Shown here one piece after another: positions 1 to 22,866 of a DNA stretch of 64,000 bases; within the stretch, counting starts at the first letter, position 1, and each line of letters begins with the position of its first letter. The stretch is from Streptosporangium amethystogenes. Lineage in GTDB: Bacteria > Actinomycetota > Actinomycetes > Streptosporangiales > Streptosporangiaceae. A program made the translations under genes and the position numbers. The notes beneath the pieces were generated by a model, which was given only the letters and a program-made list of their open reading frames with translations, made no database searches and was not told the DNA's origin. The stretch spans positions 77,232 through 141,231 of the forward strand of contig NZ_JOEQ01000022.1 in NCBI RefSeq assembly GCF_000721075.1. Direction: 5' to 3'.

Positions 1-269
1 GTGGTCAGGATGAGTATCTGCGGGGTACGAGACGCGTCGCCGTCGGCCAGGCTGTCGGCCAGGATGCGCTTGGTCGCGGCGATGCCGTCCATGCCGGGCA
101 TGCGGATGTCCATCAAGATCACATCAGGGTGAGTGGCGGCGGCGCACTGGACGGCCTCGTGACCGTCCGAGGCCTCACCGACTACTTCAAGGTCCGGGGC
201 GGCGCGCAGGAGGGCGGTCAGTCCGGCCCGGATGAGTTCCTGATCGTCGGCTACCAGAACCCTGATCAT
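1..269 (-). CDS. NarL-type response regulator, receiver part (cut by window edge)
   Basis: N-terminal receiver domain of a two-component response regulator. The reverse strand reads [10 protein letters not shown] at the start, giving the acidic pair near the N-terminus, and [13 protein letters not shown] around residue 50, where the phospho-accepting Asp sits. The C-terminal LuxR-type DNA-binding domain expected for this family would lie to the left of the window. The ATG at 269 follows the stop of the upstream histidine kinase by two bases, so the two are translated from one message. It should be the cognate partner of that kinase. Its target genes are not visible. Confidence 0.9.
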
Positions 270-271
270 CG

Positions 272-1504
272 TCACCTCTCGCTGGTTGGGGTGGAGGGTT
301 CCCGGCCGGGACGGGTGAGCAGGGGAAGGGTCGCCACGACCTGGAATCCGCCCGTAGGGCGAGGGCCGGTGGTGATCGTGCCCTGGTACAGCTTGACTCG
401 CTCGGTCATGCCGATCAATCCCTGGCCTGGTGTGTTCTGGATCACTTCGACCGGTTGGCCGATACCGAGGCGACCGTCATCACACACCTGTAATGTCAGG
501 ATGCTCACGTCGTAGATGAAGGTCACCCGCACCCGGGTAGGAGCAGCGTGTTTGACGACATTTGTCAGGCACTCCTGGATGATCCGATAGACGCACAGAT
601 CCAGCCCCTGGGGCAGGGGCTTCTCCTTGCCGGTCACGGTCACCTCCACCGTCACCCCGGCTGTGCGCACCCGTTCGATCAGTGTTCCCAGGTCCCCCAG
701 TCCCGGTGTCACGTCGTAGCGTGTCTCCCGCTCGTCGTCGGCCCCGATTCGCAGAATCAACAACAGCAGTCGCATCTCGTCCAGGGCCTCACGGGTGGTG
801 TCCGCGATGGTGGCCAGTGCCGTGCCGGCGGTGGTCGGATCGGTTGACAGCACGTACTGGCCCAGTTCGGCCTGGACCGCGACCACCGACAGATGATGGG
901 CGACCACGTCGTGCAGTTCGCGGGCGATCCGCGTTCGCTCCTGAGCCACCGCCAGCCGGGCCTTGTTCTCCTGCTCGTCACGCAACCGCTGAGTCAGTTC
1001 GGTGAGCAGCCGGTTGCTCTCGATGACCATTCGGGTGGCGCTACCGAAAGCCCAGGTGAAGCCGACGGCCATCAGCGGCCACACGACGGCCATCCAGAAC
1101 TTGGTGCCGGGGAACGCCATCGAGGAGCACCACCACAGGCCGAAGGTGAGCACCGCCCCGGCCAACGACACCGCCACGGAGCGCTGGACGGCCACGGCGT
1201 ACAGCACCAGCAGCGTCCCCATCTTGTTCACCTGGGAGTGGTAGCCGAGTGTCAGATGAACCAGGGACATCGCGCACGAGATCATCAGCACCGTGCACGG
1301 CATCCGCCGTCGCAGGGCCAACGGCATGTTCACCGCGATGGTGAGTGCGAGCGACAGGCCGTCCGGCGGACGCGTCCCGTACCTGATGTCGCTGAGTTCC
1401 CACATCCACATGATGACGGTCAGCGCCACCGCAATCACAGTGTCGACGAGCAGTGGACGCGCTGTGAGAAATCTCAACCAAGATGTCCTCGCATAGCTGT
1501 ACAT
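272..1504 (-). CDS. Sensor histidine kinase, NarL/DesK type (HisKA_3)
   Basis: Membrane histidine kinase of 410 residues. The first 155 residues hold about four to five hydrophobic segments with no recognisable extracytoplasmic sensor domain, so it probably senses through the membrane. A short coiled linker leads to the dimerisation/phosphoacceptor helix with [12 protein letters not shown], His198 being the likely autophosphorylation site. The C-terminal ATPase domain contains a [12 protein letters not shown]-box, CDDG and GQGLIGM glycine-rich motifs. It is upstream of and nearly abuts the response regulator, a standard bicistronic arrangement. The stimulus cannot be inferred. The ATG at 1504 has only a weak ribosome site, so the exact start is uncertain. 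Confidence 0.9.
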
Positions 1505-1745
1505 CAGCGCATGCTAGTCATATTCCCCCTGGCTGACACTCCTCTCCCTGCCATATACCGCAGGAGGTGTACAAGGCATAACACGGCAGGTGTAGAAGAA
1601 AACAAACTTTGCACAGTATGTGATGGGTATGCCACTCGGGTAGCTTTTTGAGTGAGGTTCCACCCCGTTGAAAGTTATCGCGATCCTCTTTTTGCGGAGG
1701 CAGAGAGGATTCGCGCCGACAATCCGTTCATGACCATGATCTGGA
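1505..1745. other. Intergenic, relatively AT-rich
   Basis: Contains the presumed promoter of the histidine kinase on the reverse strand. The stretch around 1550-1680 has runs of A and T unusual for this chromosome. An open frame from the GTG at 1652 runs rightward into the soxG 3' end, but it has no ribosome site and resembles no family I know. I see no confident gene. Confidence 0.4.
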
Positions 1746-1823
1746 CCACCTCAGACCCCGACCCCGGGGAAAGGCTCGAAAATGCTCTCGCATTCACGGG
1801 CCGGTGGGTCGGGGTCCAGGTGG
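1746..1823. terminator. Large interrupted stem just downstream of soxG
   Basis: CCACCT-2nt-GACCCCGACCC (1746-1764) pairs with GGGTCGGGGTC-1nt-AGGTGG (1806-1823), 17 pairs around a loop of about 41 bases. It starts 14 bases after the soxG stop, so it probably ends or stabilises the sox transcript. There is no U-tract. Confidence 0.5.
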
Positions 1824-1836
1824 GCCCAACCCGTTG

Positions 1837-2403
1837 TCAGGCGAACTCGGTCATCGCGTCGAGCAGCCACCGGGCGACGTAGTCGGCGAAGGAGGCGCGG
1901 GGCAGGATCAGGTACGTCGAGGGACCGGACTGCCAGAGCAGCACGGGCACCGGTCCGAGCGTGGTCGTCACCGCGTCGCCGGGACCGAACGACCGGGGAT
2001 GAAGGTCGGCTGGACAGCCCTTCTCCAGCACCTGACGCGCCGTGGCCCCGCTGAGCTCAAGAATCGTCCGGTTCGCCGACACGTCGACCACCGTGCCGGG
2101 GTCACCCGCCAGGGCCTCGACGAGGTCCGCCACCAGCGGGCCGGGTTCGGCCGACGAGACCACGAGCCATTCGTCCGGCCCCAGCCACAGGGCGGTGTGC
2201 GCTCCCGCCCGAGCGGTGTCCGCGACCCGCTCCGGCAGGCCGGCCCCCAAGGCCGCCCCGATCCGGTCGAAGGCCGCGGATCCGGGTGCCACCCGGACGG
2301 AGACCATGGTCGAGAACGGCAGCTCCCGCAGTGACCCGCCCCGGGCACCGCGCATCCGGTCCTCCAGATGCGCCAGCGGGCTGCGCCGTAGTTCAGCCGT
2401 CAC
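1837..2403 (-). CDS. soxG: Sarcosine oxidase gamma subunit
   Basis: 188-residue gamma subunit of heterotetrameric sarcosine oxidase, which oxidatively demethylates sarcosine to glycine, passing the C1 unit to tetrahydrofolate and making H2O2. Typical features are the N-terminal RSPL motif, the LGPDEWLV segment around residue 74 and the LSG...L..GCP..L stretch near 120-132, all characteristic of SoxG and distantly like the GcvT fold. It is the last gene of soxBDAG and its start overlaps the end of soxA by 11 bases, implying translational coupling. Subunit length is normal. Confidence 0.93.
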
Positions 2404-5287
2404 GCCTGTTCCCTTCGGGGTCGTACAGCACGGGCCCGGCGACCAGGACCTCGACCGGGGAGTCGCCCACCTGTGCGATGAGGGTCTCCCCGATCCGGTC
2501 CCGGCCGCCGGCGACGAGCGCGAGGGCGAACGGCCGGCCGAGCGCCTCGCTGTGGTAGCTGGAGGTGACGTGCCCGAGCATCGGGACGGGCCCCCGCTCC
2601 GGGGTGACCGGCGTGTCCGGCGCGATGATCTGCGTGCCCTCGGGCAGCCGGGTCACCCGGTCGACCGGCAGCAGGCCGATCAGGTGCCTGCGGTCGGCCC
2701 GCGCGGTGTCCGCCCTGGTGTAGGAGCGGTTGCCGATGAAGTCCTTGCGTTTCGAGACCACCCAGTCCATACCGGCGTCCTGCGGCGTGACGGTCCCGTC
2801 GGTGTCCTGCCCGACGATGGGATAACCCTTCTCCGCGCGGAGCACGTGCATCGTCTCGGTGCCGTAGGGCGTGATGTCGAGGTCCGCTCCGGCGGCGTAC
2901 AGCTGCTCCCAGACGGCGAGGCCGTACCAGCCCGACACGTTGATCTCGTAGGCGAGCTCGCCGGAGAAGGAGATCCGGCAGATCCTGGCGGGTACGCCGG
3001 AGGCCAGCGTGGTCTCGCGGAAGGTCATGAACGGGAACGCCTCGGCCGAGACGTCCAGGTCCGGGGCCACCCGCGCGACCACCTGCCGCGACTTCGGGCC
3101 CACCACCGCGATCGTCGTCCACTGCTCGGTCACCGAGGTGCAGTACACGTCCAGCTCGGGCCACTCGGTCTGCAGCCACTCCTCAAGCCAGTCGAGGACA
3201 CCGGCCGCACCGCCGGTGGTGGTGGTGAGCAGGAAGCGGTTCTCGTCGAGGCGCAGGTTCACGCCGTCGTCCAGGATCATGCCGTCGGGCTTGCACATGA
3301 CCCCGTACCTGGCGGAGCCGACCGGCAGTCTCCGGTGGGCGTTGGTGTAGACGCGGTCCAGGAACTCGCCCGCGTCGGCGCCGCAGACCTCGATCTTGCC
3401 CAGTGTGGAGGCGTCCATCATGGCGACGCCCCGCCGGGCGGCCCGGCTCTCGCGGGCGACCGCCGCGTCGATGTCCTCACCGTCCCTCGGGAAGTACCGG
3501 GGGCGCAGCCACTGCCCGACGATCTCGAACCTGGCGCCGTGCGCGACGTGCCAGGGGTGGATCGGGGTGGTCCGTTCGGGGTCGAAGAGGTCGCCCCGCT
3601 CGCGCCCGGCGAGGGCCGCGAAGGAGACCGGGGTGTAGGGCGCACGGTAGGACGTCGTGCCGATCTCTCCGGGGGTGCCGCCAAGAGCGGCGGCGAGCAC
3701 GCCGATCGCGTTGACGGCGGAGGTCCTGCCCTGGTCGTGCGCGGTGCCGATCGAGGTGTGACGCTTCACGTGTTCGATGCCGCGCAGGCCCGCACCGGTC
3801 GCCCGCCAGACGTCGGCGACGGTCTGGTCGCGCTGCAGGTCGACGAAGTGCTCGTGCCAGTCGGCCGGCTCCCCCCTCCGCCCCGGCACCAGCCAGAGCT
3901 GCCGGACCGGCCCGTACTCGCCGGTGGCCGCCCGCCCCACCGGGGCCTCGGCCTCGATCGGGAACCCGGCGGCCACGGCGGCCGCGACTCCGGCCTCGGT
4001 GCCCTCCTCAAGGCAGCCGCCGAGGTCGAAGGTGCCCCGGGCCGAACCGGCCACCCGCTGGCCGCGGACGGTCCCTTCGGGGACGAAGGCCGCGAGCACC
4101 TCGTCCCAGCGCAGCCTGCCCTGCCGCTGGCTGTGCAGGTGTACGACGGGGCTCCAGCCGCCGGAGACGGCGAGCAGGTCACACGCGATGGTCTCGACAT
4201 CGGCCTCGACGTCGCCGCCGAGCAGTCCGTCCTCGTCCAGCGCGCCGACCAGGACGCCGTCGACCCGCGAGGCGCCGGTCGTCTCGACGACCGCGCTGCC
4301 CGGCACGACACGCACCCCGGTCCCGGCGACCTCGGCCGCGCGCGGCGACAGGGTGGGACGGGCGTCGATCACGGCCGCCACCTCGACTCCGGCCGCGACC
4401 AGGTCGGTCACCGTGTCGTACGCGCTGTCGTTGGTGGTGCTCACCACGGCGCGGGAGCAGGGCGCCACCGCGTACCGGTTGAGGTAGCCGCGCACGGCCG
4501 AGGCCAGGAGGACCCCGGGACGGTCGTTGCCCGCGAAGACCAGCGGACGCTCGTGCGCGCCGGTGGCGATCACGACCCGCGCCGCCCGGATGTGCCAGAC
4601 CCGCCGGCGGGACATGCCCTCGGGGGCCGGGTGACCGAGATGGTCGGTGCGGTGCTGGACGGCGACGACGTAGTTGTCGTCGTAACTTCCGAAGGCGGTG
4701 GTGCGGCTGAGCACCGTCGCCTCGGGGGCGGATTCGAGTTCGGCCACGACTTCGCGTACCCAGTCCAGGGCGGGCGAGCCGTTCACCGTCTCCTCCCGGC
4801 AGGAGAGCAGCGATCCCCCCGGCTCGGACTGCTCGTCGAGGAGGATCACCCGGGCGCCCGACCTGGCGGCGGCCCAGGCCGCGGCGAGCCCCGCCGGGCC
4901 GGCACCGACGACCAGGACGTCGGTGTGCGCGAACTTCTTGTCGTAGACGGCCTCGTCACCGGTGGGGTCGAGCCGGCCCAGACCGGACAGCGTCCGCACG
5001 GCCAGCCCGTCGACGAGGGAGACCGTGGTGGCCGGGAGCATCGACTCCGAGCACCGCCCGAGAACCTCAAGCAGCGCGTTCGGCTCCTCGACGCCGGCCG
5101 CCACGATGCCGCGTGGGCGCCCTCGGTAGATCGAGGGGGCGACGTCGAGCCTGCCCGCGGCCAGCATCGCCGAGGCGACGGTGTCGCCCGGGTGGCCGGT
5201 CAGCTCCTGGCCGTCGACGGTGAGGCGGAGCACCGTGTCGCGGTCGATCCGGCCGCCGGACGGGAGCCGGTGGGGCTGGGCGCTCAT
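2393..5287 (-). CDS. soxA: Sarcosine oxidase alpha subunit
   Basis: 964-residue alpha subunit. An N-terminal ferredoxin-like fold without cluster cysteines is followed by an NAD-binding Rossmann domain with [14 protein letters not shown] near residue 120. The C-terminal third is a GcvT/aminomethyltransferase-like domain that binds tetrahydrofolate. I placed the start at the ATG whose ATGA overlaps the soxD stop (5284-5287). The same frame stays open 255 bases further upstream across soxD, but that extension is low-complexity and has no homologous look. Full length and no frame break. Known family role: binds NAD+ and folate and passes methylene to H4folate. Confidence 0.95.
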
Positions 5288-11130: not shown

Positions 11131-11766
11131 TCACCGGCGGCTGATGACGGAGTCACCTACGGCAGCCTCGGTCTGGGCGATCAGTTCCTGGAGCGGCGCC
11201 GGGAGGGCGGTGATCGAATCGGAGAGGTATCTCGGGTTCTGCTCCCACAGAACGAGTTGGTTGCCGCCGGTTGCGACGAGCAGCCCCAGCAGGACGCCGT
11301 CCTGGACGCTGAGTGGCTCACGGCGTTGGATCGCCAGGTTGACGCGTCCGCCGGGCCACGCCGCGATGTTCACGTCGACCGGCACCTGCCTCCGCGACGG
11401 GCGTCTGCCGGGCGGGCGCAGCAGCCCGTCGGCGGTCATCCGGGCCGCCACGTCGGCGAGTGCCGTACGGGCGAGGAACTGCAACCAGGTACGGAAGCGG
11501 TGTGCGGGTTCGGCGACGACGTGGTCCAGGGCGGTCCTGGTGAGCGCGTCTTCGGGCGGCGCCGCGTCGAGAACGACGAGCCGTATCTGCCCTGCCGCCA
11601 ATCCCACGGTTATCCGCCCGGCGAGCATCAGTTCTCCCAGGATGGCGGCGGCCAGCCCCAGACCGGTCAGGCGGGCATGAAGCCTCATCCGGCCGGTCGC
11701 ATTGTCATGCATGACAAAGAACAGGTCGTCAGCCAATCGGGGTCCCGAAAGATCAACTTCAGCCAC
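11131..11766 (-). CDS. GPP34 (GOLPH3/VPS74-like) family protein
   Basis: About 211 residues. The family signature LADDLFFVMHDNATGR followed by a helical LGLGLAAAILGELMLAGRI segment is clear near the N-terminus. GPP34 proteins are homologues of the eukaryotic Golgi phosphoprotein 3, which binds phosphatidylinositol 4-phosphate. Their role in actinobacteria is unsettled. The start is ambiguous: GTG at 11766 begins just before the conserved region and lies downstream of an AT-rich promoter-like patch, whereas an ATG at 11877 would add a 37-residue AT-rich leader unlike the family. It heads the permease-acetyltransferase operon. Confidence 0.8.
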   Translation of the reverse strand: MAEVDLSGPRLADDLFFVMHDNATGRMRLHARLTGLGLAAAILGELMLAGRITVGLAAGQIRLVVLDAAPPEDALTRTALDHVVAEPAHRFRTWLQFLARTALADVAARMTADGLLRPPGRRPSRRQVPVDVNIAAWPGGRVNLAIQRREPLSVQDGVLLGLLVATGGNQLVLWEQNPRYLSDSITALPAPLQELIAQTEAAVGDSVISRR

Positions 11767-12333
11767 GAACGGCGATCGTATAGGTAAATTGCTAAATCTG
11801 CCATTACGCGAATAAAATTCTGGCGCGTAGCGGATAGCTCCAAGCAGGAATCGGAGAAAACGAAGTCGCCCGCCCACGACCGAGGTGGCAATGGCCGGAA
11901 CCCCGGGCCCGAAAGCTCCCTGGAGGGTGCGGACGCCCCCTACCGGAGACCGGTGATCACCCGGGTGACCTGGTACGCAAAGAAGAAAACCCGCCTCACG
12001 CCGGCAGCGTGAAGCGGGCCTTCGAAGGTTTTTCCCCGCCGGGAGAATCCAGCCGAGCGAGCCGCGCGGAGCGGGAATCAGCGGGGCCTGGGTAATTAGT
12101 GTCTGTCTTTAATTCGGAAAGTTACACCGACCAGGGACCGGAATGGCGCGGTAACGGCTTCCGCACACCCGGTGTCGAATCACGGCCACGGGTTCAGGCG
12201 GCGCGAACGGGCTGCCGGAGTACGGTCAGCATCTTCTCCGGGTCGGTCTCCCCCGTATCGGACAGGTAGATCTCGTGGTGCAGGCCGTGCCGAACTCCAC
12301 CGCCTCGGGAACCTTCCGCGGCCGATTACCGGT
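11767..12333. other. Long intergenic region
   Basis: 567 bases between the MerR gene and the GPP34 gene. It holds a terminator for the MerR transcript (described separately), the AT-rich promoter area of the GPP34 operon around 11770-11830, and overlapping palindromes GGTGATCACC (11952-11961) and CACCCGGGTG (11959-11968). I see no gene. Confidence 0.5.
11990..12018 (-). terminator. Intrinsic terminator after the MerR gene
   Basis: 12-bp arms with one mismatch (11990-12001, 12007-12018) and a 5-base loop. On the reverse strand the stem is followed by TTTTCTTCTTT, a proper U-tract, which is unusual in this GC-rich sequence. Confidence 0.8.
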
Positions 12334-13107
12334 TCATTCCGGGTCCTCCAGTTTGATCATCAGATGGGTCACCAGTCGGTCCTGCGGCGTGGTGGCGGGG
12401 TTGGAGACGTACACCTCGCGCAGCGGGCCTTCGGGCGTGTGCCCGTGCTCGCCCACCCAGGCGAGCAGCGCGTGCGCGGTGAGCGGGATCTGGTCGTAGG
12501 GACCGACGTGCGTCACCGAGGCGTACAGACCGCCGGGCAGGACATCCGAGGACGTCCCCGGCACGTCCTCGGACGTCTCCACGGTGACGGCCACGGTGAG
12601 CTCCGGCGCGAGGTCGAGCGGGAACAGCCCGATCATCAGCCCCCTCGGATCGCCCGCCGCGGCGAGCAGCCGGGTCACGCACGCCGAGGTGACGGCACCG
12701 ATCCGGTCCGGTGTCGCGACGTCCCTGACGACGGCCACCCGCCGGGCGGGCTCACGGACCACCGTCACCTCCGGCCGGGGCAGGCCGTCGGCGAGGATGC
12801 GTTCGAGCGCGGCGAAGTTGCGCTCGCGGCGCGCCAGCTCGGCCTCCATCCGGTCACGTACGCCACCGAGCGCACCCGTGTCGCCGGACAGCACCCGCCC
12901 GATCGAGGGCAGGGGTACGTCGATGGACCGGAGCAGGCCGATCAGCATCGCGGCCCGTGCCTGGTCCGGCCGGTAGTAGCGGTAGCCGGTGTCCGGATCG
13001 ACGTAGTCCGGGGGCAGCAGGCCCAGCTCGTCGTAGTGACGCAGCTGCTTGACGCTGAGCCGGCAGAGCCTCGCGAACCGCCCGATCGGCAGGTGTCCCT
13101 CGTTCAC
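12334..13107 (-). CDS. MerR-family regulator with GyrI-like effector domain
   Basis: 257 residues. The MerR DNA-binding domain is at residues 1-70 (LPIGRFARLCRLSVKQLRHYDELGLL, DTGYRYYRPDQ, shown here in parts), then a coiled coil, then a GyrI-like ligand-binding domain with the GLYASVTHVGPYDQ stretch, as in BmrR-type multidrug sensors. I chose GTG 13107, since a MerR-type promoter ends seven bases upstream and the mRNA would start at or next to this codon, making it leaderless. An upstream frame extension overlaps that promoter. No divergent target gene is present, so autoregulation is the only visible control. Confidence 0.85.
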   Translation of the reverse strand: MNEGHLPIGRFARLCRLSVKQLRHYDELGLLPPDYVDPDTGYRYYRPDQARAAMLIGLLRSIDVPLPSIGRVLSGDTGALGGVRDRMEAELARRERNFAALERILADGLPRPEVTVVREPARRVAVVRDVATPDRIGAVTSACVTRLLAAAGDPRGLMIGLFPLDLAPELTVAVTVETSEDVPGTSSDVLPGGLYASVTHVGPYDQIPLTAHALLAWVGEHGHTPEGPLREVYVSNPATTPQDRLVTHLMIKLEDPE

Positions 13108-15220: not shown

Positions 15221-15256
15221 CTATTTACTCATATATCTCGATATATGAGTAAATAG
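15221..15256. promoter_or_regulatory. 36-bp near-perfect palindrome (17-2-17)
   Basis: CTATTTACTCATATATC, spacer TC, then its exact complement. It is very AT-rich in a very GC-rich context. The two-base spacer matches the hyphenated 12-2-12 operators of ArsR/SmtB repressors, and the next gene is an SRPBCC protein, a common ArsR partner. No arsR-like gene lies beside it. Confidence 0.6.
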
Positions 15257-15263
15257 ACTCCTA

Positions 15264-15569
15264 ATGGGCGGCTTCGAGGTGGACGAGGCGCCGGGGAGGG
15301 TCGTCGCGATGGAGCCGGGCCGCAGGTTCTCCCTGGAGTGGCCGGGCTTCGGCGTCTCCAGCTGGGAGCCGGAGGGCTCGGACGGCGCGACGCGGCTCAC
15401 CTTCATGATGAGCGGCTTCGAGGAGGACAGCCCCCTGTACGCCGGGTGGATGGGCCGGCTCAGCGGCGTCGCCGAGCTGCGCCGCTTCCACGAGCCGAGC
15501 GACCGGCAGCCGATCTGGTTTGATTTCGAGCCCCCCGCCCTGCCCGAGGAGACCGCCGCGACCAGGTGA
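15264..15569 (+). pseudogene. SRPBCC (AHSA1-like) protein, N-terminally truncated
   Basis: 101 residues matching only the C-terminal part of an AHSA1/SRPBCC hydrophobic-ligand-binding protein (EPGRRFSLEWPG, SSWEPEG, GWMGRLSGVAELRRFHE). Full-length members are about 140-160 residues, so the first beta strands and helix are missing. In-frame stops lie just upstream, so no longer start is available. The gene begins right after the 36-bp palindrome, as if a deletion had joined an operator to the 3' half of its target. It may be a remnant. A short functional form cannot be excluded. Confidence 0.6.
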
Positions 15570-15667
15570 CCGCGCGCCCTCAGGGCCGCCTACCGGCGAA
15601 AGGGCCGGTATCCCCGGTTCACTCGGCTCCGCGTGTATCACCGGCGGGCGGCGCGCCTCATATCGCT

Positions 15668-17566
15668 GTGAGAAACCCACGGTCTCCCTGGCCGTTCACG
15701 GCCAGAGCTGAGGAGTTTGATCTCGTACGGCGAAACCTCTCCGCCGGTCGCCGGGGGATCGTCGTGACCGGTGCGGCGGGCAGCGGCCGGAGCCGCCTGA
15801 CCGCCGAGGCCGTGCCCGAGGCGATGCGTGACGCGGTGCTCGTCGTGGACGACGCCCATCTGCTCGACGACGCCTCGGCCGCGCTCGTCCACGAGCTGGC
15901 GCTCGGTGGGCGCACCCGCCTGCTCGTCACGGTCAGGGAGGGCGAGCCCGCGCCGAAGGATATCTCCAGGCTCTGGGAGGAGAACCTGCTGCCGCGCCTG
16001 GCACTGGCCCCCCTGACGGAGCACGCCTGCGCCGAGCTGCTGGCGCGGGCGGTGGGCGGCTATGTGGACGCCCTCACCGTCCGGCGCCTGTACCGGGCGA
16101 GCCGCGGCGACCTGCGGCTGCTGCGCGAGCTGGTCGTCGCCGTGCACGCCGGCGGAGACCTGAACCACGTGTCGGGCACCTGGACCTGGCGGGGCACGCC
16201 GCCGATCACCGCGCGCGTCCGGGAACTGGTGGAGGAGACGATCCGCGACCTCGACACCGAGGAGCGGGACGCGCTGGAGCTCATCGCGTCCGGCGAACCA
16301 CTGGGCGCGGGCGCGGATGCGCCGGGCGCCCTCGTGGCCCCCGCCGTCCTCGAACGCCTGCGGGCGAGGGGGCTCGTCACCGTGGACGACCGGCTCGTCC
16401 ACCCGCTGCACGGCCCGGTGCTGCGGGCCGCCGCGGCGGAGCCCTCCCTCTCGGGCGGGCCTTCCGGTAGGCGAAGGGCCCCGAGGGCCTCGGCGCTGGC
16501 GGCCGAGTGCGAGGAACTGGCCGCGCGCGCGTACACCGGAAGACTCGCGGAGATACCCCGGGGCGTCGGCGAGCGGATGGCCGAGGACGACACCGGCTGG
16601 GACGAGCCCGCGATGCCGGAGTTCTGCGCGCGGCGCGCCCGCGTCGCCCGGCTCCGCGGGGAGACCCGCGAGGCCATGGCCTGGAGTCGCGAGGGACTGC
16701 GCCGCTCTCCCCACCACCGCGACTGCCTGGCCGAACTCGCCCACGCCGCCGCCTACGTCGGCGACCTGGCGACGGCCTGGCAGGCCATCTCGCGCGGTCC
16801 CGCCCCCGCCGGGGATGCCTGGACGCGCCCGTGGCCGGTGAGCGGAGCACAGCCTCCGGCGCCTGCGGGGGACACCCGGTCGCCCGCGCCCGACACGGAC
16901 ACCTGGCGGCGGGCATCCGCCGCCGTACCGGCACGGACCTGGGCACTCGCCGCCGAGGGAGACCTCGACGGCGCCCTGCGGTCCGCGCTCGGCGTCGCCG
17001 GAGACGGCCTGTTCGGAGACGACCTGTTCGCCCTGCACGACGTGGTGCGGCTCGGCTCCCCCGAGCTGGTCGCCGATCGGCTCGGGGAACTGGCCGACCG
17101 CGCGGAGGGGGACCTCGCTCCCCTGCTGGCGCGGCACGCCCGCGCGCTGGCCCGGCGCGACGGGGACGCCCTGGACAAGGTGGCGCGGGGACTCGCCGAC
17201 CTCGGCCTGATGCTCCACGCCGCGGAGGCGTCCGCGCACGCCGCCCTCGTCCACCCCGACCGGCGCGCCTCGCAGGCATCCAGGAACCGGGCCTCGGCGC
17301 TGGCGGGCGCCTGCCAGGGGGCGCGCAGCTCCGCGCTGGTCAACCTCGCGCTGCCGAGGCTGACCGCCCGCCAGCGGCAGATCGTCAGCCTTGCCGCGGC
17401 GGGCCTGACCAACCGGCAGATCGCCGAGCAGCTCACGGTGTCGATCCGCACGGTCGCCAACCACCTGTGCGACGCCTACGCGCGTCTCGGCAGCAGCGAC
17501 CGCGCCGGCCTGGAAGGGCTCTTCACCGTTGGCCTGCGCGGCGACCGGACGGGCGGCCACCGATGA
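15668..17566 (+). CDS. LuxR-family regulator with N-terminal ATPase domain (LAL-like)
   Basis: About 632 residues. An STAND-type ATPase starts with GAAGSGRSRLTAEA (Walker A) and VLVVDDAHLLDD (Walker B). A helical, TPR-like middle follows, and the last 65 residues form a LuxR HTH (LTARQRQIVSLAAAGLTNRQ and IRTVANHLCDAYARLG). I chose GTG 15668, directly ahead of the conserved PWPFTARAEEF box. An earlier GTG at 15566 overlaps the SRPBCC stop and would add 34 unstructured residues. It converges with the CHAT-domain gene, 19 bases apart. Whether it controls that module is unknown. Confidence 0.85.
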   Translation: MRNPRSPWPFTARAEEFDLVRRNLSAGRRGIVVTGAAGSGRSRLTAEAVPEAMRDAVLVVDDAHLLDDASAALVHELALGGRTRLLVTVREGEPAPKDISRLWEENLLPRLALAPLTEHACAELLARAVGGYVDALTVRRLYRASRGDLRLLRELVVAVHAGGDLNHVSGTWTWRGTPPITARVRELVEETIRDLDTEERDALELIASGEPLGAGADAPGALVAPAVLERLRARGLVTVDDRLVHPLHGPVLRAAAAEPSLSGGPSGRRRAPRASALAAECEELAARAYTGRLAEIPRGVGERMAEDDTGWDEPAMPEFCARRARVARLRGETREAMAWSREGLRRSPHHRDCLAELAHAAAYVGDLATAWQAISRGPAPAGDAWTRPWPVSGAQPPAPAGDTRSPAPDTDTWRRASAAVPARTWALAAEGDLDGALRSALGVAGDGLFGDDLFALHDVVRLGSPELVADRLGELADRAEGDLAPLLARHARALARRDGDALDKVARGLADLGLMLHAAEASAHAALVHPDRRASQASRNRASALAGACQGARSSALVNLALPRLTARQRQIVSLAAAGLTNRQIAEQLTVSIRTVANHLCDAYARLGSSDRAGLEGLFTVGLRGDRTGGHR

Positions 17567-17585: not shown

Positions 17586-20213
17586 TCAGGCCGCTCCGAT
17601 GGCGGAGAAGGACCAGCCCGTCGCACGGTGGAGCGCGTCGCCGGGCATCGACAACCTGGCGTCGCGCAGGGCCTCGGCCATGCTCAGGCCGCGCCGCAGC
17701 CCCTCGTGCAGGGCGAGCATCAGCGGTACCACGGCCTCGTCGTCGACCGGCACCGAGCTCGCCACGATCCCGGCCGTGCCCAGCGGCAGCAGCGCCGTGG
17801 CGAGGCCCAGCAGCTCGTTCGCGCCGACCGGCTGCAGCCTGCCGGAGTCGCAGCTGGACAGGAGGATCCGGTACGGAGCGCTGCGGAGTCGTTCGAGGTC
17901 GTGCACCGTGAGCGGGCCGTCGTCCATCCCCAGGGAGGAGAACATCGGGCTGTCGGAGCGGAAGGTGCCGTGCGCGGCGATGTGCGCGAGCCTGCTGCCG
18001 TCCAGCGCCGCGAGCACGGCCGAGGTGACCGCGGTGCCGTTCTCCAGCACCGTCGCCTCGCCGTACCTGGCTGCCAGGGGCGGGATCTCGGCACCGCCCG
18101 TCGCCAGCCCCGGGCCTCTGACCAGCACGACCCGATCCCGTGACGGCGACGGCTCGATCCGCCGGGCGTGGAGCCAGGCGCTCGCCGACGGCGACACGCT
18201 CAGCACCCGCGTACCCAGCGCGGGCAGCAGCGCCCAAGGCACGCCGTGCAGCCTGCCCGGCGGTACGACGACCACCGGCCCTTCCCCGAGGTGGCGCACC
18301 GCGGGGCCGAGCAGTGTCTCCTGGAGGCGGCGCCCGCCGGCTTCGAGGACGGGCAGCCTGGCCGCGGAGCCCCCGTACGCGATCCTGCTGAGACCCGCGC
18401 GGGCGTGGTCGGCGTCGATCGCCGCGTCGGCCAGCCGTCCCGCGGCGAACCTGCGCACCCGGCCCCGGCCGCAGAGCAGGACGTGCAGGTCGCCGTCGAC
18501 GGCGACGATCTCGATCAGCCACCCGTCACCGAGTTCGTCGAGCAGCAGGTCCACGTCGAAGCGGTGCCCGTCGGTGCCGCCCGCACCGCGCATCCGGAGC
18601 GTCCGGTCGCGGATCCCCTTCTCCAGCCGCCGCTGCTCGCGCTCCAGCGCGGGGGCCGGGCTGCCTTTCTGCCTCGCCGCCTCGATCCGGCTGCTGATCT
18701 CCCGGAAGGCCGTCACGTCGCGCAGCAGCTCGGGGTCGTCCGGCGGCCGGGTGGGCGGGACCGCCAGCACCGTGGCGCGCCAGCGCTCACTCCAGCCGAG
18801 GAACCGGCGGGGGCTCCCTCCTGCGAGGGTCGCCCGCTGCGCGAGCAGGGCCAGCTCCGCCCCCTGCGCGGTGGCCCGCGCTCGCAACTCCGAGGCGCCC
18901 AGTGTCATCCTGTACTCGTCCAGCAGGTCGAGACCCCGCCGGCAGGCGTCCAGCACGCCGCGGGTCCGCCCCGCGGCCGCAGCCCGCAGCGCCTGCGCCA
19001 CCCAACCGTCCACCCGGGCGAAGGCGGGACCGCGTGCCCTGCCCCTGGCCGCGGCGGCCAGGTGCCGTTCGGCGTCGGCGTCGGCGCCGAGGGCGAGGGC
19101 GGTGCGACCGGCCAGCAACGACGCCTGGACCGCCTCGGGGGCGCGCAGCTCCGCCAGCCGCAGCGCGACCGCGGCGGCGTCGCGTACCGAACGGCCGGAG
19201 ATCTCACCCGCCGCGAACCTGGCCTGGACCAGCACCAGCCGAGCGTGGGCCTGCCACCAGTCGCGGCGCTGACTGGAGAAGAGCCGGACGGCCGTGCCCG
19301 CGCGGACGATCGCCGCGTGCGGCTCGCCCACCGCGATCGCGGCCCGCGCGGCGATCAGGAGGAGTTCGGCGCCGCGGGTCGTCTGCCCTCCCGTACGGTT
19401 CAGCAGCTCCGTGGCGGCGTCGGCCTCCTCCAGCGCCTCGCGCGCCAGCCCGGCCGCCAGGAGCACCCCGCACCGCCGGATGTGCAGCACGAACATGGGC
19501 GTGCCGAGTGCCCGGTAACGGCTCGCGGCCTCGTCGAAGTGGTGCAGCGCCGCGGGGAGGTCACCGGACCTGAACGCCGCCAGCCCCCTGCTCTCCACCG
19601 CGTCGGCCTTGTCGTGCTCCTGGTCGGTGGTGTCCCACAGCAGCTCGGCGGCGACGAAGTCGGCCTCGGCCCGCTCCACGGCCCCCACGGCCAGGTGGAC
19701 CGTGGCCCTGAGGGTGAGCGCGCGGGCGGTCCAGATCGTGTCCTGTGCCCGGCGCAGGGCGGGGATGGCCCGGCGCAGGTCGTCGAGCGACTCACGGTGC
19801 CCGCCGAGGACCCACCAGGCGTAGCCGCGCCGAAACAGCGCGCGGGCGCCGGTGAGCCCGCCGCCCCTCTCGACCGCCGCCCCCAGCGCCGCCATCCCCT
19901 GCCTGGTGCGCCCCGCGTGGATGAGGGCGGCCCCCAGGGTCGACAGCACGTCCGTCTCGCGGTCCGCGGAGCCGGACCTGACCGCCAGCACACGGGCCCG
20001 CCGGAGATGGTCGATCGCCGTCGTGAGGTCGCCGAAGTCGCGCTGCCAGATGCCGATCACCTGGTGGGCGACGGAGGCGTCATGAAAGGAAGGGGCGCCC
20101 GCCAGCACGGCCCGCGCTCCGGCCAGCGCGTCGGCGGGACGGGCGAACAGCAGGGGCAACAGGTCGAGAGCATCTCCCACGGAAGGCGGGGTCCGCGGGC
20201 TTCCCCCGGTCAC
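17586..20213 (-). CDS. TPR-CHAT domain caspase-like protein
   Basis: 875 residues, cytosolic. Residues about 20-430 are helical tetratricopeptide-type repeats (for example DLTTAIDHLRRARVLA). The last 250 residues are a CHAT domain, a caspase-fold protease. The expected catalytic dyad is visible: His748 in IAAHGTF and Cys788 in SSCDSG. There is no signal peptide. Start is GTG 20213 with no ribosome site, probably leaderless. It is divergent from an operon of S8 protease, ECF sigma factor and small protein, a combination that recurs in actinobacteria and is regarded as a conflict or signalling module. Its substrate and trigger are not evident. Confidence 0.88.
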   Translation of the reverse strand: MTGGSPRTPPSVGDALDLLPLLFARPADALAGARAVLAGAPSFHDASVAHQVIGIWQRDFGDLTTAIDHLRRARVLAVRSGSADRETDVLSTLGAALIHAGRTRQGMAALGAAVERGGGLTGARALFRRGYAWWVLGGHRESLDDLRRAIPALRRAQDTIWTARALTLRATVHLAVGAVERAEADFVAAELLWDTTDQEHDKADAVESRGLAAFRSGDLPAALHHFDEAASRYRALGTPMFVLHIRRCGVLLAAGLAREALEEADAATELLNRTGGQTTRGAELLLIAARAAIAVGEPHAAIVRAGTAVRLFSSQRRDWWQAHARLVLVQARFAAGEISGRSVRDAAAVALRLAELRAPEAVQASLLAGRTALALGADADAERHLAAAARGRARGPAFARVDGWVAQALRAAAAGRTRGVLDACRRGLDLLDEYRMTLGASELRARATAQGAELALLAQRATLAGGSPRRFLGWSERWRATVLAVPPTRPPDDPELLRDVTAFREISSRIEAARQKGSPAPALEREQRRLEKGIRDRTLRMRGAGGTDGHRFDVDLLLDELGDGWLIEIVAVDGDLHVLLCGRGRVRRFAAGRLADAAIDADHARAGLSRIAYGGSAARLPVLEAGGRRLQETLLGPAVRHLGEGPVVVVPPGRLHGVPWALLPALGTRVLSVSPSASAWLHARRIEPSPSRDRVVLVRGPGLATGGAEIPPLAARYGEATVLENGTAVTSAVLAALDGSRLAHIAAHGTFRSDSPMFSSLGMDDGPLTVHDLERLRSAPYRILLSSCDSGRLQPVGANELLGLATALLPLGTAGIVASSVPVDDEAVVPLMLALHEGLRRGLSMAEALRDARLSMPGDALHRATGWSFSAIGAA

Positions 20214-20344
20214 GGATCGATGTTAGACGTGATGTGTTCGGAGCGTCCATGCCGCTGTGCTCGTACGCAGGGGTGTATCAACCGGGCGCCCCGCGGCTCC
20301 TAACCCATGGCGACGTGAGGAATCTCCGAGACAGGACAGTGAAC
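20214..20344. promoter_or_regulatory. Divergent promoter region of the CHAT/protease module
   Basis: 131 bp between the two divergent starts. On the reverse strand TAACAT lies 12 bp before the CHAT GTG, fitting a -10 box of a leaderless transcript. The rightward side has AGGA eight bases before the protease ATG. No clear palindrome was seen. Confidence 0.4.
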
Positions 20345-21793
20345 ATGGCACCAGACAGGTTCCAGGAACAGTTCGACCAGATCCAGGCGGCCATGGGAGA
20401 GGGGGTCGTGCTCGCGGCGGGCCCGGATGACTCGTCCAGTTTTCTCTATGAGAAGGGCTGTGTCCTCGCCAGGCGGGATGACGCCCCCGAGGTCACCCGG
20501 GCGATCCGGAGGGCGTTCCGCCGGGATCGCGGCAGTGACCGTGGCGTGGAGCTGCAGGAGGAGGAGAGCCCGAGCGGCGTGTTCAAGATCCTGGTCGGGC
20601 CTGTGGACCGTGCGGAGCGCTGGAGCGACCGGGACGTGTCGGACGCGTTGCGGGCCGTCGAGGAGCTGGAGCAGGCCAACGGCCGCCGGATGGTGTCCAG
20701 GAACCACATCGTGTCCATCGCGGTGAACTGCTGCCCCGGCGACGAGCCGGTACCCGTGGCCCGATACGGGCCGCCCAACCCGGCGGTGGTCAAGCGGGTC
20801 GCCGGCGCGACGGCCGGCCCGGTGTCCGTCCTGGTGATCGACACGGGACTGGTGGAGAACTACAGGTCGCACCCGTGGATGAGCCTCGTCGAGGGCGAGG
20901 GCAAGGAGATCGAGCTGGACTCCGAGGGGATACTCAAGCAGTACGTCGGTCACGGCACCTTCATCGCCGGGCTGATCAGCGCCGTCGCACCCAGCGCCGC
21001 CATCACGGTGAACGGGGCGCTCGTCAACGCGGGCGCCATCTCCGAGAAGTGCCTGGGTGACCTCCTGCTCGGGGAGATGCGGCCGTTGAACAGGTGGCCG
21101 GACATCATCAACCTGTCCGCGGGAACCCTGAGCACGGACTGCCAGGCGCTCATGGGGCTTGAGGACTTCATGCGGGAGCTGGTGACCAACCACCCGGAGA
21201 CACTGCTGGTGGCCGCGGCGGGGAACAACGGCAGCGACAAGCGGTTCTATCCCGCGGCCTACGCCGACGACCCCGACTACGCCGGCGCCGTCGTGTCGGT
21301 GGGCGCGCTGAGGAAGGACGGCCAGGACCGGGCCTGCTTCAGCGGTCACGGGCCGTGGGTGACGGCGTACGCTCCCGGGGAGCACCTGGTGAGCGCCTTC
21401 ACCGCGGTGGACGACACCCCGGTGCCCTACGACTACCAGCATTCGACCTACGACCACTGCCGGTACGGCTCCACCTACGACTGCACCTGCCAGTTCCCTC
21501 CGCACCGGGGCGAGCTCAGCGAGAAGATGGCGGCGTCGCCGAACGCGATCCGCGAACGCGTCAGGTTCGACGGGCTGGCGCAGTGGAGCGGCACCTCCTT
21601 CTCCGCGCCCCTGGTCGTCGGCATGATCGTCAATCACATGGTGCGGAACAACGTGACCGACTCCCGGCAGGCCGCCGCCGAGCTGCTGACCGCCCCCCTG
21701 TCCGGCAGGGGGGTGCAGGGCCTGACCGCCCCCACCCTCATCCCCTCCACCTGGACGCCGTCGAGCGTGCAAAGTGTCCCGGTCGCGCTCTGA
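20345..21793 (+). CDS. Cytosolic S8 (subtilisin-like) serine protease of the CHAT module
   Basis: 482 residues with no signal peptide. A 155-residue N-terminal region of unknown fold precedes the peptidase. The triad is intact: Asp166 (VLVIDTG), His203 (GHGTFIAG) and Ser418 (GTSFSAP), with the oxyanion Asn at 294/295 (AAGNNG). An insertion before the serine is rich in Cys and His (H366, H371, C372, C380, C382) and could bind metal or form disulfides. The ATG at 20345 follows AGGA by eight bases; earlier in-frame starts lack a ribosome site. First gene of a protease-sigma-small protein operon, divergent from the CHAT gene. Confidence 0.9.
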   Translation: MAPDRFQEQFDQIQAAMGEGVVLAAGPDDSSSFLYEKGCVLARRDDAPEVTRAIRRAFRRDRGSDRGVELQEEESPSGVFKILVGPVDRAERWSDRDVSDALRAVEELEQANGRRMVSRNHIVSIAVNCCPGDEPVPVARYGPPNPAVVKRVAGATAGPVSVLVIDTGLVENYRSHPWMSLVEGEGKEIELDSEGILKQYVGHGTFIAGLISAVAPSAAITVNGALVNAGAISEKCLGDLLLGEMRPLNRWPDIINLSAGTLSTDCQALMGLEDFMRELVTNHPETLLVAAAGNNGSDKRFYPAAYADDPDYAGAVVSVGALRKDGQDRACFSGHGPWVTAYAPGEHLVSAFTAVDDTPVPYDYQHSTYDHCRYGSTYDCTCQFPPHRGELSEKMAASPNAIRERVRFDGLAQWSGTSFSAPLVVGMIVNHMVRNNVTDSRQAAAELLTAPLSGRGVQGLTAPTLIPSTWTPSSVQSVPVAL

Positions 21794-21859
21794 AAACCGG
21801 TGCGGCCGCATCGGCCCTCCGTCGTACGATGACAGTCCCGAATGCAAGGGGACGTCACC

Positions 21860-22435
21860 GTGGATCGAGACTCGACCGGCACTCTCTTCCGCGCCGCGGT
21901 GGATGGGGAGACCGCGGCGTGGAAATCCCTGGTGGAGGGCCTCAGCCCGCTCGTGTGGTCCGTCGTGCGCGCCCACGGGCTGAGAGACGCGGACGCCCAG
22001 GAGGTCTACCAGACGACCTGGTTCCGGCTCGCGCAGAACCTCGCGCGGATCCGTGAGCCGGACCGGGTCGGGGCCTGGCTGGCCAGCACGGCGCGGAACG
22101 AGTGCGTCAAGGTGATCAGAACCGCTCGGCGGGTCTCGCCGAGCGACGACCCCGAGGTGTTCGACCGCGCCGCCGACGGTCGTACGCCCGAGCAGGCGGT
22201 GGTCGACGCCGAGGAGGCGTCGATGGAGCGGGAGCGGATGCGGGCCATGTGGCAGGCGTTCCAGGAACTGGGAGAGAACTGCCGGCGGCTGCTGCGCCTG
22301 CTCATGGCCTCGCCGCCGGTCAGCTACCAGGAGGTGTCGGCGACGCTCGGCATCGCCGTCGGGAGCATCGGGCCGATCAGACAGCGCTGCCTGCGGCGGC
22401 TGCGCGTCCTCCTCACGGAACGGGGCTTCCGATGA
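21860..22435 (+). CDS. ECF sigma factor of the CHAT/protease module
   Basis: 191 residues. Region 2 is at the N-terminal third (AWKSLVEGLSPLVWSVVR, DAQEVYQTTWFRLAQNL) and region 4 at the end (SYQEVSATLGIAVGSIGPIR), a standard two-domain ECF sigma. The GTG at 21860 follows AAGGGGA. It starts 66 bases after the protease stop and ends overlapping the next ATG, so it is co-transcribed with both. No anti-sigma factor is adjacent, so activity is probably controlled by one of the module's proteins or by transcription. Confidence 0.88.
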   Translation: MDRDSTGTLFRAAVDGETAAWKSLVEGLSPLVWSVVRAHGLRDADAQEVYQTTWFRLAQNLARIREPDRVGAWLASTARNECVKVIRTARRVSPSDDPEVFDRAADGRTPEQAVVDAEEASMERERMRAMWQAFQELGENCRRLLRLLMASPPVSYQEVSATLGIAVGSIGPIRQRCLRRLRVLLTERGFR

Positions 22436-22866
22436 GCGACGACGCGCTTGAGGCGGAGCTGCGCCGCGCCGTCGAGTTGTTCGATCCCGTTCCCTCCGAG
22501 CTCCTGCAGGTCGCCGTCGAGGCCTACGCGCTCCGCGCGCTCGACGCCGAGCTGGCCGAGCTGGTCTTCGACTCCCTCAGCGGGCCCTCACGGGTGCGGG
22601 GTGACAGGGCGCCGCGGATGCTGACCTTCCAGGTGGCGGAGCTGACCGTCGACCTGGAGGTCACCGTGACCGCCGACGGCGGGCGTGTGGTGGGCCAGCT
22701 GATGCCGCCGGGTCCCGCGGAGGTCGAGGTCCTCGGGCACCGTCCGGTGACGCTGGCCACCGACGAGCTGGGCAGGTTCGTCTACGACGACGTCCCCGCC
22801 GGGCCTTTCAGCCTCCGCTGTCACCTCGCGGGCGCGACCGTCGTCACCGAGTGGATCACCGTCTGA
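22432..22866 (+). CDS. Small protein with carboxypeptidase-regulatory-like beta-sandwich
   Basis: 144 residues, no signal peptide. A helical N-terminal part (ELLQVAVEAYALRALDAEL) leads into a beta-sandwich with the pattern GQLMPPG...DELGRFVYDDVPAGPFSL, close to the carboxypeptidase regulatory-like/SdrD-type fold. The ATG overlaps the sigma stop (ATGA). Proteins of this type accompany ECF sigma factors in CHAT/S8 neighbourhoods, where a regulator role toward the sigma factor is plausible but unproven. Confidence 0.7.
   Translation: MSDDALEAELRRAVELFDPVPSELLQVAVEAYALRALDAELAELVFDSLSGPSRVRGDRAPRMLTFQVAELTVDLEVTVTADGGRVVGQLMPPGPAEVEVLGHRPVTLATDELGRFVYDDVPAGPFSLRCHLAGATVVTEWITV

Follow-up and report, generated by a model that had tools for sequence, protein, structure and literature searches.

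A control site shared by the subtilisin-like protease and AbsR2-like regulator genes of an ECF54-type sigma factor module in Streptosporangium amethystogenes

Introduction

Why should a sigma factor be encoded beside two proteases of different fold? The question is raised by a stretch of 64,000 nucleotides (nt) from Streptosporangium amethystogenes (contig NZ_JOEQ01000022.1, positions 77,232 to 141,231), here called the window, in which the gene for a tetratricopeptide repeat (TPR)-CHAT protease lies divergent from genes for an S8 (subtilisin-like) protease, an extracytoplasmic function (ECF) sigma factor and a small protein. A first-pass annotation, made from the letters of the DNA, had proposed a proteolytic cascade coupled to a transcription switch and ending in cell death or phage defence. 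The gene set is not new, because a review already names this context for sigma group ECF54 and proposes proteolytic control (PMC8999054). What is new is a control site, TGTATCA-N15-N(C/G)TC, common to the S8 gene and to the adjacent gene of a LuxR-type regulator. This sharing appears to point to an antibiotic-linked regulator and S8 itself as the output, not to defence. It is proposed that the locus is an ECF54-type module working as a CRISPR-free analogue of Craspase, and the full model, with CHAT cleavage, sigma release and two target genes, is given a probability of roughly 0.5.

The gene set, control site, domain folds and residue conservation described below were computed. Published sources are cited by PMC identifier, for what the available parts of each contain. 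The features of the locus are as follows.

15634..15659, plus strand: bipartite control site TGTATCA-N15-CCTC, candidate sigma promoter of the LuxR gene, 8 nt upstream of its GTG start
15668..17566, plus strand: AbsR2-like LuxR-type regulator, 632 amino acids (aa), from an NF050132 match and translation; convergent with CHAT
17586..20213, minus strand: TPR-CHAT caspase-like protease, 875 aa; His748 codon 17970-17972, Cys788 codon 17850-17852
20220..20225, minus strand: TAACAT, -10-like, 6 nt upstream of the CHAT GTG; candidate leaderless housekeeping promoter
20274..20299, plus strand: bipartite control site TGTATCA-N15-GCTC, conserved and intergenic; candidate sigma promoter of the S8 gene
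20345..21793, plus strand: cytosolic pro-subtilisin (S8), 482 aa; predicted prodomain at about residues 33-124 (20441-20716); Asp166/His203/Ser418
21825..21830, plus strand: TACGAT, -10-like, between S8 stop and sigma start; TANNATGA in 53/70 such gaps
21860..22435, plus strand: ECF sigma factor, 191 aa (Sigma70_r2, TIGR02937)
22432..22866, plus strand: small protein, 144 aa, candidate sigma inhibitor and protease target; CarboxypepD_reg match below cut-off

Conserved gene set and shared control site

All four genes of the first-pass annotation are present and intact between 17586 and 22866, as judged from open reading frame translations and domain matches, and their association reaches past close relatives. 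A profile of the small protein was used to retrieve the best 80 of 115 loci (84,980 species, one genome per species, one peptide pattern), with gene order assigned by domain coordinates. CHAT, S8, sigma factor and small protein occur together in 72 of these 80, and 67 of the 72 keep the window's order, with CHAT divergent from S8-sigma-small protein. The loci without all four are L006, L007, L009, L048, L062, L077, L079 and L081, some of them clipped by contig ends. The LuxR regulator is the fifth gene of the set: of 84 sequences inspected (window included, several loci clipped by contig ends), 51 contain a relative, and LuxR was found in 2/4 genomes with the small protein and in 0/4 without.

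Between the divergent CHAT and S8 genes, the heptamer TGTATCA was found in 68 of 71 intergenic stretches, mostly about 60 nt upstream of the S8 gene. These stretches come from 72 divergent loci, the window and L124-L127 included, after one outside 80-600 nt had been dropped. The full pattern TGTATCA-N15-N(C/G)TC precedes S8 in 67/71 stretches, compared with 106/14200 for 200-nt windows placed at random in these loci. The same pattern stands before LuxR in all 47 anchored loci, compared with 76/14100 random windows. Since they are drawn from the same loci, both sets of random windows include real sites. LuxR upstream stretches were anchored on a conserved W-P-F-T-G-R-like motif, whereas anchoring on the search envelope gave 10/52. 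Seven of the 54 LuxR loci were left unanchored (L002, L006, L007, L009, L012, L034 and L038); when anchored on the envelope, four of them have the site and L002 and L034 do not, L038 being outside that count. The first in-frame LuxR start codon lies exactly 8 nt 3' of the site in 41 of 47 sites. This is how far a -10 element is expected to lie from the start codon of a leaderless transcript.

Exactly two matches to TGTATCA-N15-N(C/G)TC occur on both strands of the 64-kb window, at 15634-15659 and 20274-20299. The pairing also holds when the genes are separated or exchanged. In genome G005 (locus L179), where about 37 kb separate LuxR from the S8 site, LuxR still has a site of its own, and in G006 (L180) a gene of the Streptomyces antibiotic regulatory protein (SARP) type, with Trans_reg_C and BTAD domains, follows the site beside CHAT in place of LuxR. 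A LuxR relative was found in neither G031 nor G190 at E 1e-25, and the S8 site is still present in both.

Genome-wide occurrence was followed in the genus of G031 (101 genomes), which is probably Streptomyces because both sites of genome G272 equal those of L013 (S. blattellae). At least 28 of them carry the small protein, with a single match in each of the 28. Two or more control sites were found in 28/28 genomes with the small protein and in 8/73 without it, a difference whose Fisher value (4e-18) overstates independence, the species being related. In total, the carriers hold 81 sites and the other 73 genomes 39. A reversed control pattern occurs 44 times in the carriers and 103 times in the other 73, so that chance matches per genome are similar in both groups.

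Against this stands the finding that, outside the main branch, the site is mostly missing: 24 of 30 S8 genes had none within 400 nt, although for several the anchor lay within the gene. The 24 include the S8 genes of a colinear form of the module, here module B (L001, L087-L091), all six of which lack the site, as would fit another sigma factor. In nine genomes the site occurs 26 times and its reversed control 37 times, with a pattern stricter than that applied to LuxR, in which any base is accepted before (C/G)TC. For this reason, no regulon is claimed beyond S8, LuxR or SARP, and a possible third site.

That third site, TGTATCA-N15-(A/G)CTC, lies in apparently non-coding DNA of five loci of the genus of G031 (L149, L153, L167, L168 and L203), with 4-7 CGGGGGA repeats within 260 nt downstream, and possibly marks a small RNA. 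Rfam gave no match in the window at gathering scores, and sub-threshold anti-hemB matches in L149 and L153 were taken as chance. Separately, an AT-rich inverted repeat, ctatttactcatatat-ctcg-atatatgagtaaatag, lies at 15221-15256 of the window, upstream of a small frame at 15264; its 16-bp arms match perfectly around a 4-nt loop, and it is a probable operator of a regulator.

The two proteases

CHAT matches PF12770 over residues 627-873 (E 1.8e-29), and its TPR matches fall under the Pfam cut-off. The catalytic residues cited by the first-pass annotation for both proteases are correct. When CHAT relatives were aligned in 74 rows, all 67 rows with a residue at the position had His748 and 66 of 67 had Cys788; for S8, likewise aligned in 74 rows, identity is at least 95% at each of Asp166, His203, Asn294 and Ser418. 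Run against the PDB, a profile of CHAT relatives (A3) hit Csx29 (chain 7y9x_B, E 3.9e-7) and further CHAT chains, where the single CHAT sequence found no match at E 0.01. On the CHAT side of the intergenic stretch (140 nt), TANNNT stands 5-8 nt 5' of an ATG or GTG in 69/71 stretches, compared with 211/3550 shuffled ones.

The S8 peptidase domain was recognized by PF00082 (E 2.1e-18). Its start was placed at ATG 20345 in place of 20234, because the closest relative has 482 aa and nearly all of the 120 relatives listed have 470-497 aa. The earlier description of the protein as cytosolic is reasonable, the highest hydropathy over 19 residues being 1.77, with no segment resembling a membrane span. 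The predicted structure matches unprocessed pro-subtilisin E and pro-Tk-subtilisin over the full length, and the model contains a beta-alpha-beta-beta-alpha-beta prodomain of the I9 type, joined to an S8 domain with Asp, His and Ser; this prodomain has no Pfam match. The modelled fold suggests that S8 is produced as an inhibited zymogen. As in pro-subtilisins of the I9 type, the fold match extends over the whole protein; unlike them, S8 of the module has no membrane-like segment and no Pfam prodomain match, and is genetically tied to a sigma factor and CHAT.

In the window's branch, the linker between prodomain and catalytic domain contains a conserved P-G-D-E-P-V-P stretch. Distant S8 relatives have 3-11 near-perfect tandem hexapeptides in this linker. 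A screen flagged 10 of 96 S8-like frames, of which L047 was dropped as a likely non-coding run, leaving nine: L132, L133, L142, L143, L144 (two), L145, L146 and L147, with the hexapeptides NPAYQG, NPGYQG, GTPYPG, HPFWGG, HPFWVG, GPFTSG, HPMYDG, VGYGDG and NPFTRS. At the DNA level, the array at L132 12939-13083 has period 18, 8.1 copies and 98% matches.

Within an insertion of S8 at residues 372-382 (window 21458-21490), three cysteines (C372, C380 and C382, in CRYG..YxCTC) reach at least 95% identity in the rows that have a residue at these positions and are absent from distant relatives; they may form a metal or redox site. In L130, a trypsin-like protein (11337-12905, minus strand; GDSGS and SNWHV motifs, weak NAL1_N match) adjoins CHAT where no S8 was detected, for which reason the second protease of the module may be exchangeable. 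This protein has repeats around EPHYQ. None of the repeat motifs of the S8 and trypsin-like proteins recurs in any other frame of at least 60 aa in the same locus.

The sigma factor and the small protein

The sigma factor matches Sigma70_r2 (E 5.5e-12) and TIGR02937 (E 3.8e-22), with a weak region 4 (Pfam E 0.016), and its start was taken as GTG 21860, directly 3' of a stretch resembling a ribosome-binding site. The "tightly coupled operon" of the first-pass annotation holds for the sigma and small-protein genes, which overlap (ATGA). It does not extend to S8 and sigma, which are 66 nt apart, with a -10-like element in between; TANNATGA was found in 53 of 70 such gaps. As -10-like elements precede both, the CHAT unit and the sigma/small-protein unit look constitutive, and S8 and LuxR look induced.

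The small protein had been described as a beta-sandwich protein. The sandwich is indeed predicted (residues 62-138), preceded by two N-terminal helices (3-16 and 22-46) and a low-confidence linker, in which Arg56 (22597-22599) is invariant in all 82 aligned sequences. Foldseek returned no match to this fold at E 0.001. Carboxypeptidase activity was rejected, the match being to a regulatory beta-domain of generic fold and below the cut-off (CarboxypepD_reg, E 0.0043). Kinship with Csx30 was likewise rejected, as no match was found at E up to 1. The small protein is a candidate sigma inhibitor and protease target.

Distribution of the module

In a phylum-wide sample, the small protein was found in at least 25 of 246 genomes of 19 genera. 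Because at most 15 candidates per genome were scored in this sample, and at most 37 in the single-genus sample, the small-protein counts are lower bounds. The four genes stand together in 18 of 27 neighbourhoods from 24 genomes of the phylum sample, the window's own left out; one of these neighbourhoods, L129, is the same stretch as L077 of the 80-locus set. The window's genome contains a second, colinear module, S8-sigma-small protein-CHAT (G000 contig C27, L001:4490-9144), an order that recurs in L087-L091. Adjoining the main module of L070, a second sigma/small-protein-like pair lies divergent from its own CHAT (210-4184).

The module is split in three Planotetraspora genomes (L006, L007, L009, L084-L086), where LuxR-sigma-small protein lies about 30 kb from CHAT-S8 and a second small-protein gene. 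No sigma factor was detected with the CHAT-S8-small protein half, and its S8 genes retain the control site. The small protein thus accompanies each half, as would fit proteases and sigma factor being linked. This arrangement and the wide synteny support the view that the two proteases and the sigma factor belong together, and a link between proteolysis and transcription is therefore likely, as the first-pass annotation had supposed. The part of its proposal concerning phage defence or cell death is unsupported, the small protein having no match in phage records and no relative encoded on a viral contig.

The AbsR2-like regulator and the link to antibiotics

The LuxR protein matches NF050132 (E 1.6e-151) with 506 bits, under the 850-bit cut-off. 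Its longest frame, from 15566, begins too far upstream, and the start was taken as GTG 15668. In Streptomyces coelicolor, the corresponding genes are SCO6993-SCO6997, an order deduced from Streptomyces loci and published names: AbsR2 (SCO6993), the serine protease SCO6995 and SCO6996, which has been called a sigma factor (PMC9739823). From gene order, SCO6994 would be CHAT and SCO6997 the small protein. Deletion of SCO6993 raises pigment production (PMC9628970), and the two predicted targets, S8 and LuxR, act in one direction on antibiotic output. AdpA was reported to control SCO6995, whose putative promoter contains a motif resembling that of AdpA (PMC2936110).

In a primer published for the start of SCO6993, TGTATCAGGGATGAGT stands directly 5' of the annotated ATG (PMC9628970), and this matches the Streptomyces form of the control site (compare L030 and L044). 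Because TGTATCAGGGATGAGT directly precedes it, the annotated start of SCO6993 may sit inside the promoter.

Relation to known systems

For ECF54, control by proteolysis, with no anti-sigma factor involved, has been put forward in view of its carboxypeptidase, subtilase and CHAT context (PMC8999054 section 3.3). The module agrees with this group in an ECF sigma factor conserved with subtilase, CHAT and "carboxypeptidase"-annotated proteins in Actinobacteria. Sigma regions 2 and 4 were both found, region 4 weakly, and the CHAT, subtilase and carboxypeptidase-type context is present, the last label coming from a match below cut-off. The group's context reportedly goes back to Casas-Pastor in 2021 and Huang in 2015, as cited by the review. 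The module differs from the review's proposal, which has no anti-sigma factor: the "carboxypeptidase" is here likely the two-helix/beta-sandwich protein with a weak regulatory-domain match, and a control site ties S8 to LuxR.

In Craspase, or CASP (type III-E), the TPR-CHAT protease Csx29 cuts Csx30, the inhibitor of an ECF-like sigma factor whose binding motifs occur within its own locus (PMC10028731). The module shares with it a TPR-CHAT protease, an ECF sigma factor, an adjacent small protein and candidate sigma sites within the locus. In contrast to Craspase, it has a second protease, S8, as a predicted target gene, and its small protein has no detectable kinship with Csx30. No RAMP-family (PF03787) match was found in the window's genome, and a repeat search covering window 9000-31000 found no direct-repeat family in that stretch. 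To our knowledge, experimental evidence for control of a sigma factor by a TPR-CHAT protease is confined to CRISPR type III-E. Literature searches with literal terms returned no experiment on the module, no promoter for the sigma factor and no link to AbsR2, and the available parts of PMC5994538, PMC6295645, PMC7406223, PMC8103513 and PMC7159879 contain nothing on the module.

Proposed mechanism and alternatives

In the proposed model, CHAT, sigma factor and small protein would be standing parts, made from housekeeping-type promoters as their -10-like elements suggest, and the small protein would restrain the sigma factor, perhaps via its N-terminal helices. On a signal sensed by the TPR domain, CHAT would cut the small protein, perhaps at the conserved V-R-G of the linker, and so free the sigma factor. 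The freed sigma factor would then transcribe S8 and the AbsR2-like LuxR gene through TGTATCA-N15-N(C/G)TC; that the two genes share this site is observed, and that the sigma factor reads it is what we infer. The S8 zymogen would mature later and either remove leftover inhibitor in a feed-forward step or shut the response off. The effect in Streptomyces would be reduced antibiotic production. A more specific version is put forward tentatively: a CRISPR-independent relay for secondary metabolism in filamentous actinobacteria, in which a CHAT cut at the linker Arg of a dedicated inhibitor would free the sigma factor to induce a zymogen protease and an antibiotic regulator from one dedicated promoter. 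The short repeats of distant branches (often Pro-x-aromatic), which sit at the activation linker or within an insertion of the second protease (S8, or in one case the trypsin-like protein), would be exchangeable recognition or cleavage tags of this relay.

Other arrangements of the same parts have to be weighed against CHAT cleavage of the small protein. According to the proposal published for ECF54 (PMC8999054 section 3.3), CHAT and S8 would degrade the sigma factor itself, no anti-sigma factor would exist, and the small protein would be an adaptor or delivery factor. Both proteases are conserved beside the sigma gene, in line with this; however, S8 shares the control site of LuxR and hence looks induced with the output rather than standing, and the small protein stays with the sigma factor where no module protease is nearby. 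We consider this version unlikely. The order of events could also be reversed, with CHAT or autocatalysis maturing the pro-subtilisin, S8 cutting the small protein, and the S8 promoter providing positive feedback. Such an order is possible, if doubtful: S8 is modelled as a pro-subtilisin, its P-G-D-E-P-V-P stretch could be a processing site, and in 3/3 Planotetraspora loci S8, with its site kept, adjoins the small-protein gene without sigma, whereas CHAT has the closer precedent in Csx29, and the output promoter seems to drive S8 itself.

Doubt may also attach to the control site, which could be the operator of AdpA, of the LuxR protein itself or of another factor, the sigma factor having other targets. 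The reported control of SCO6995 by AdpA speaks for this. On the other hand, a promoter fits the constant distance of 15 nt between the two blocks and the start codon placed 8 nt 3' in 41/47 LuxR sites, the site is kept in G031 and G190, where no LuxR was found, and it tracks the small protein across the 101 genomes of one genus. What we take to be the AdpA consensus does not match TGTATCA, and an operator is judged a rather unlikely explanation. An anti-phage or abortive-infection system is the least probable of these alternatives. It would be in keeping with the place of TPR-CHAT and sigma in type III-E CRISPR defence (PMC10028731) and with caspase/ECF sigma pairs in proposed immunity systems (PMC8195603). 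Against it stand the recurrent LuxR neighbour, the missing phage and viral matches of the small protein and the missing RAMP-family match in the genome, and in PADLOC S8 was the only one of the four proteins with matches, to three subtilase-type models: "subtilase" as the best (E 9.6e-08), followed by two weak ones of IetS. The "subtilase" match probably reflects the general S8 fold; CHAT, sigma factor and small protein had none. In three of six neighbouring genes, MerR-, LuxR- and MarR-like, the DNA-binding regions match mad1, CARF3/Csa3-type and MkoB models, and these matches are read as shared helix-turn-helix domains. Phage defence or a mobile element was dropped as the role of the module for lack of support; the sole plasmid match is an 11.85-Mb Nonomuraea record that is evidently a chromosome.

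Implications

If the proposed CHAT-sigma relay is true, SCO6993, SCO6995 and SCO6996, which are treated apart in the available parts of the literature, would belong to one pathway, and the predicted promoter and targets make the model directly testable in S. coelicolor. If the module works like type III-E, the same logic would operate without CRISPR in bacterial developmental regulation.

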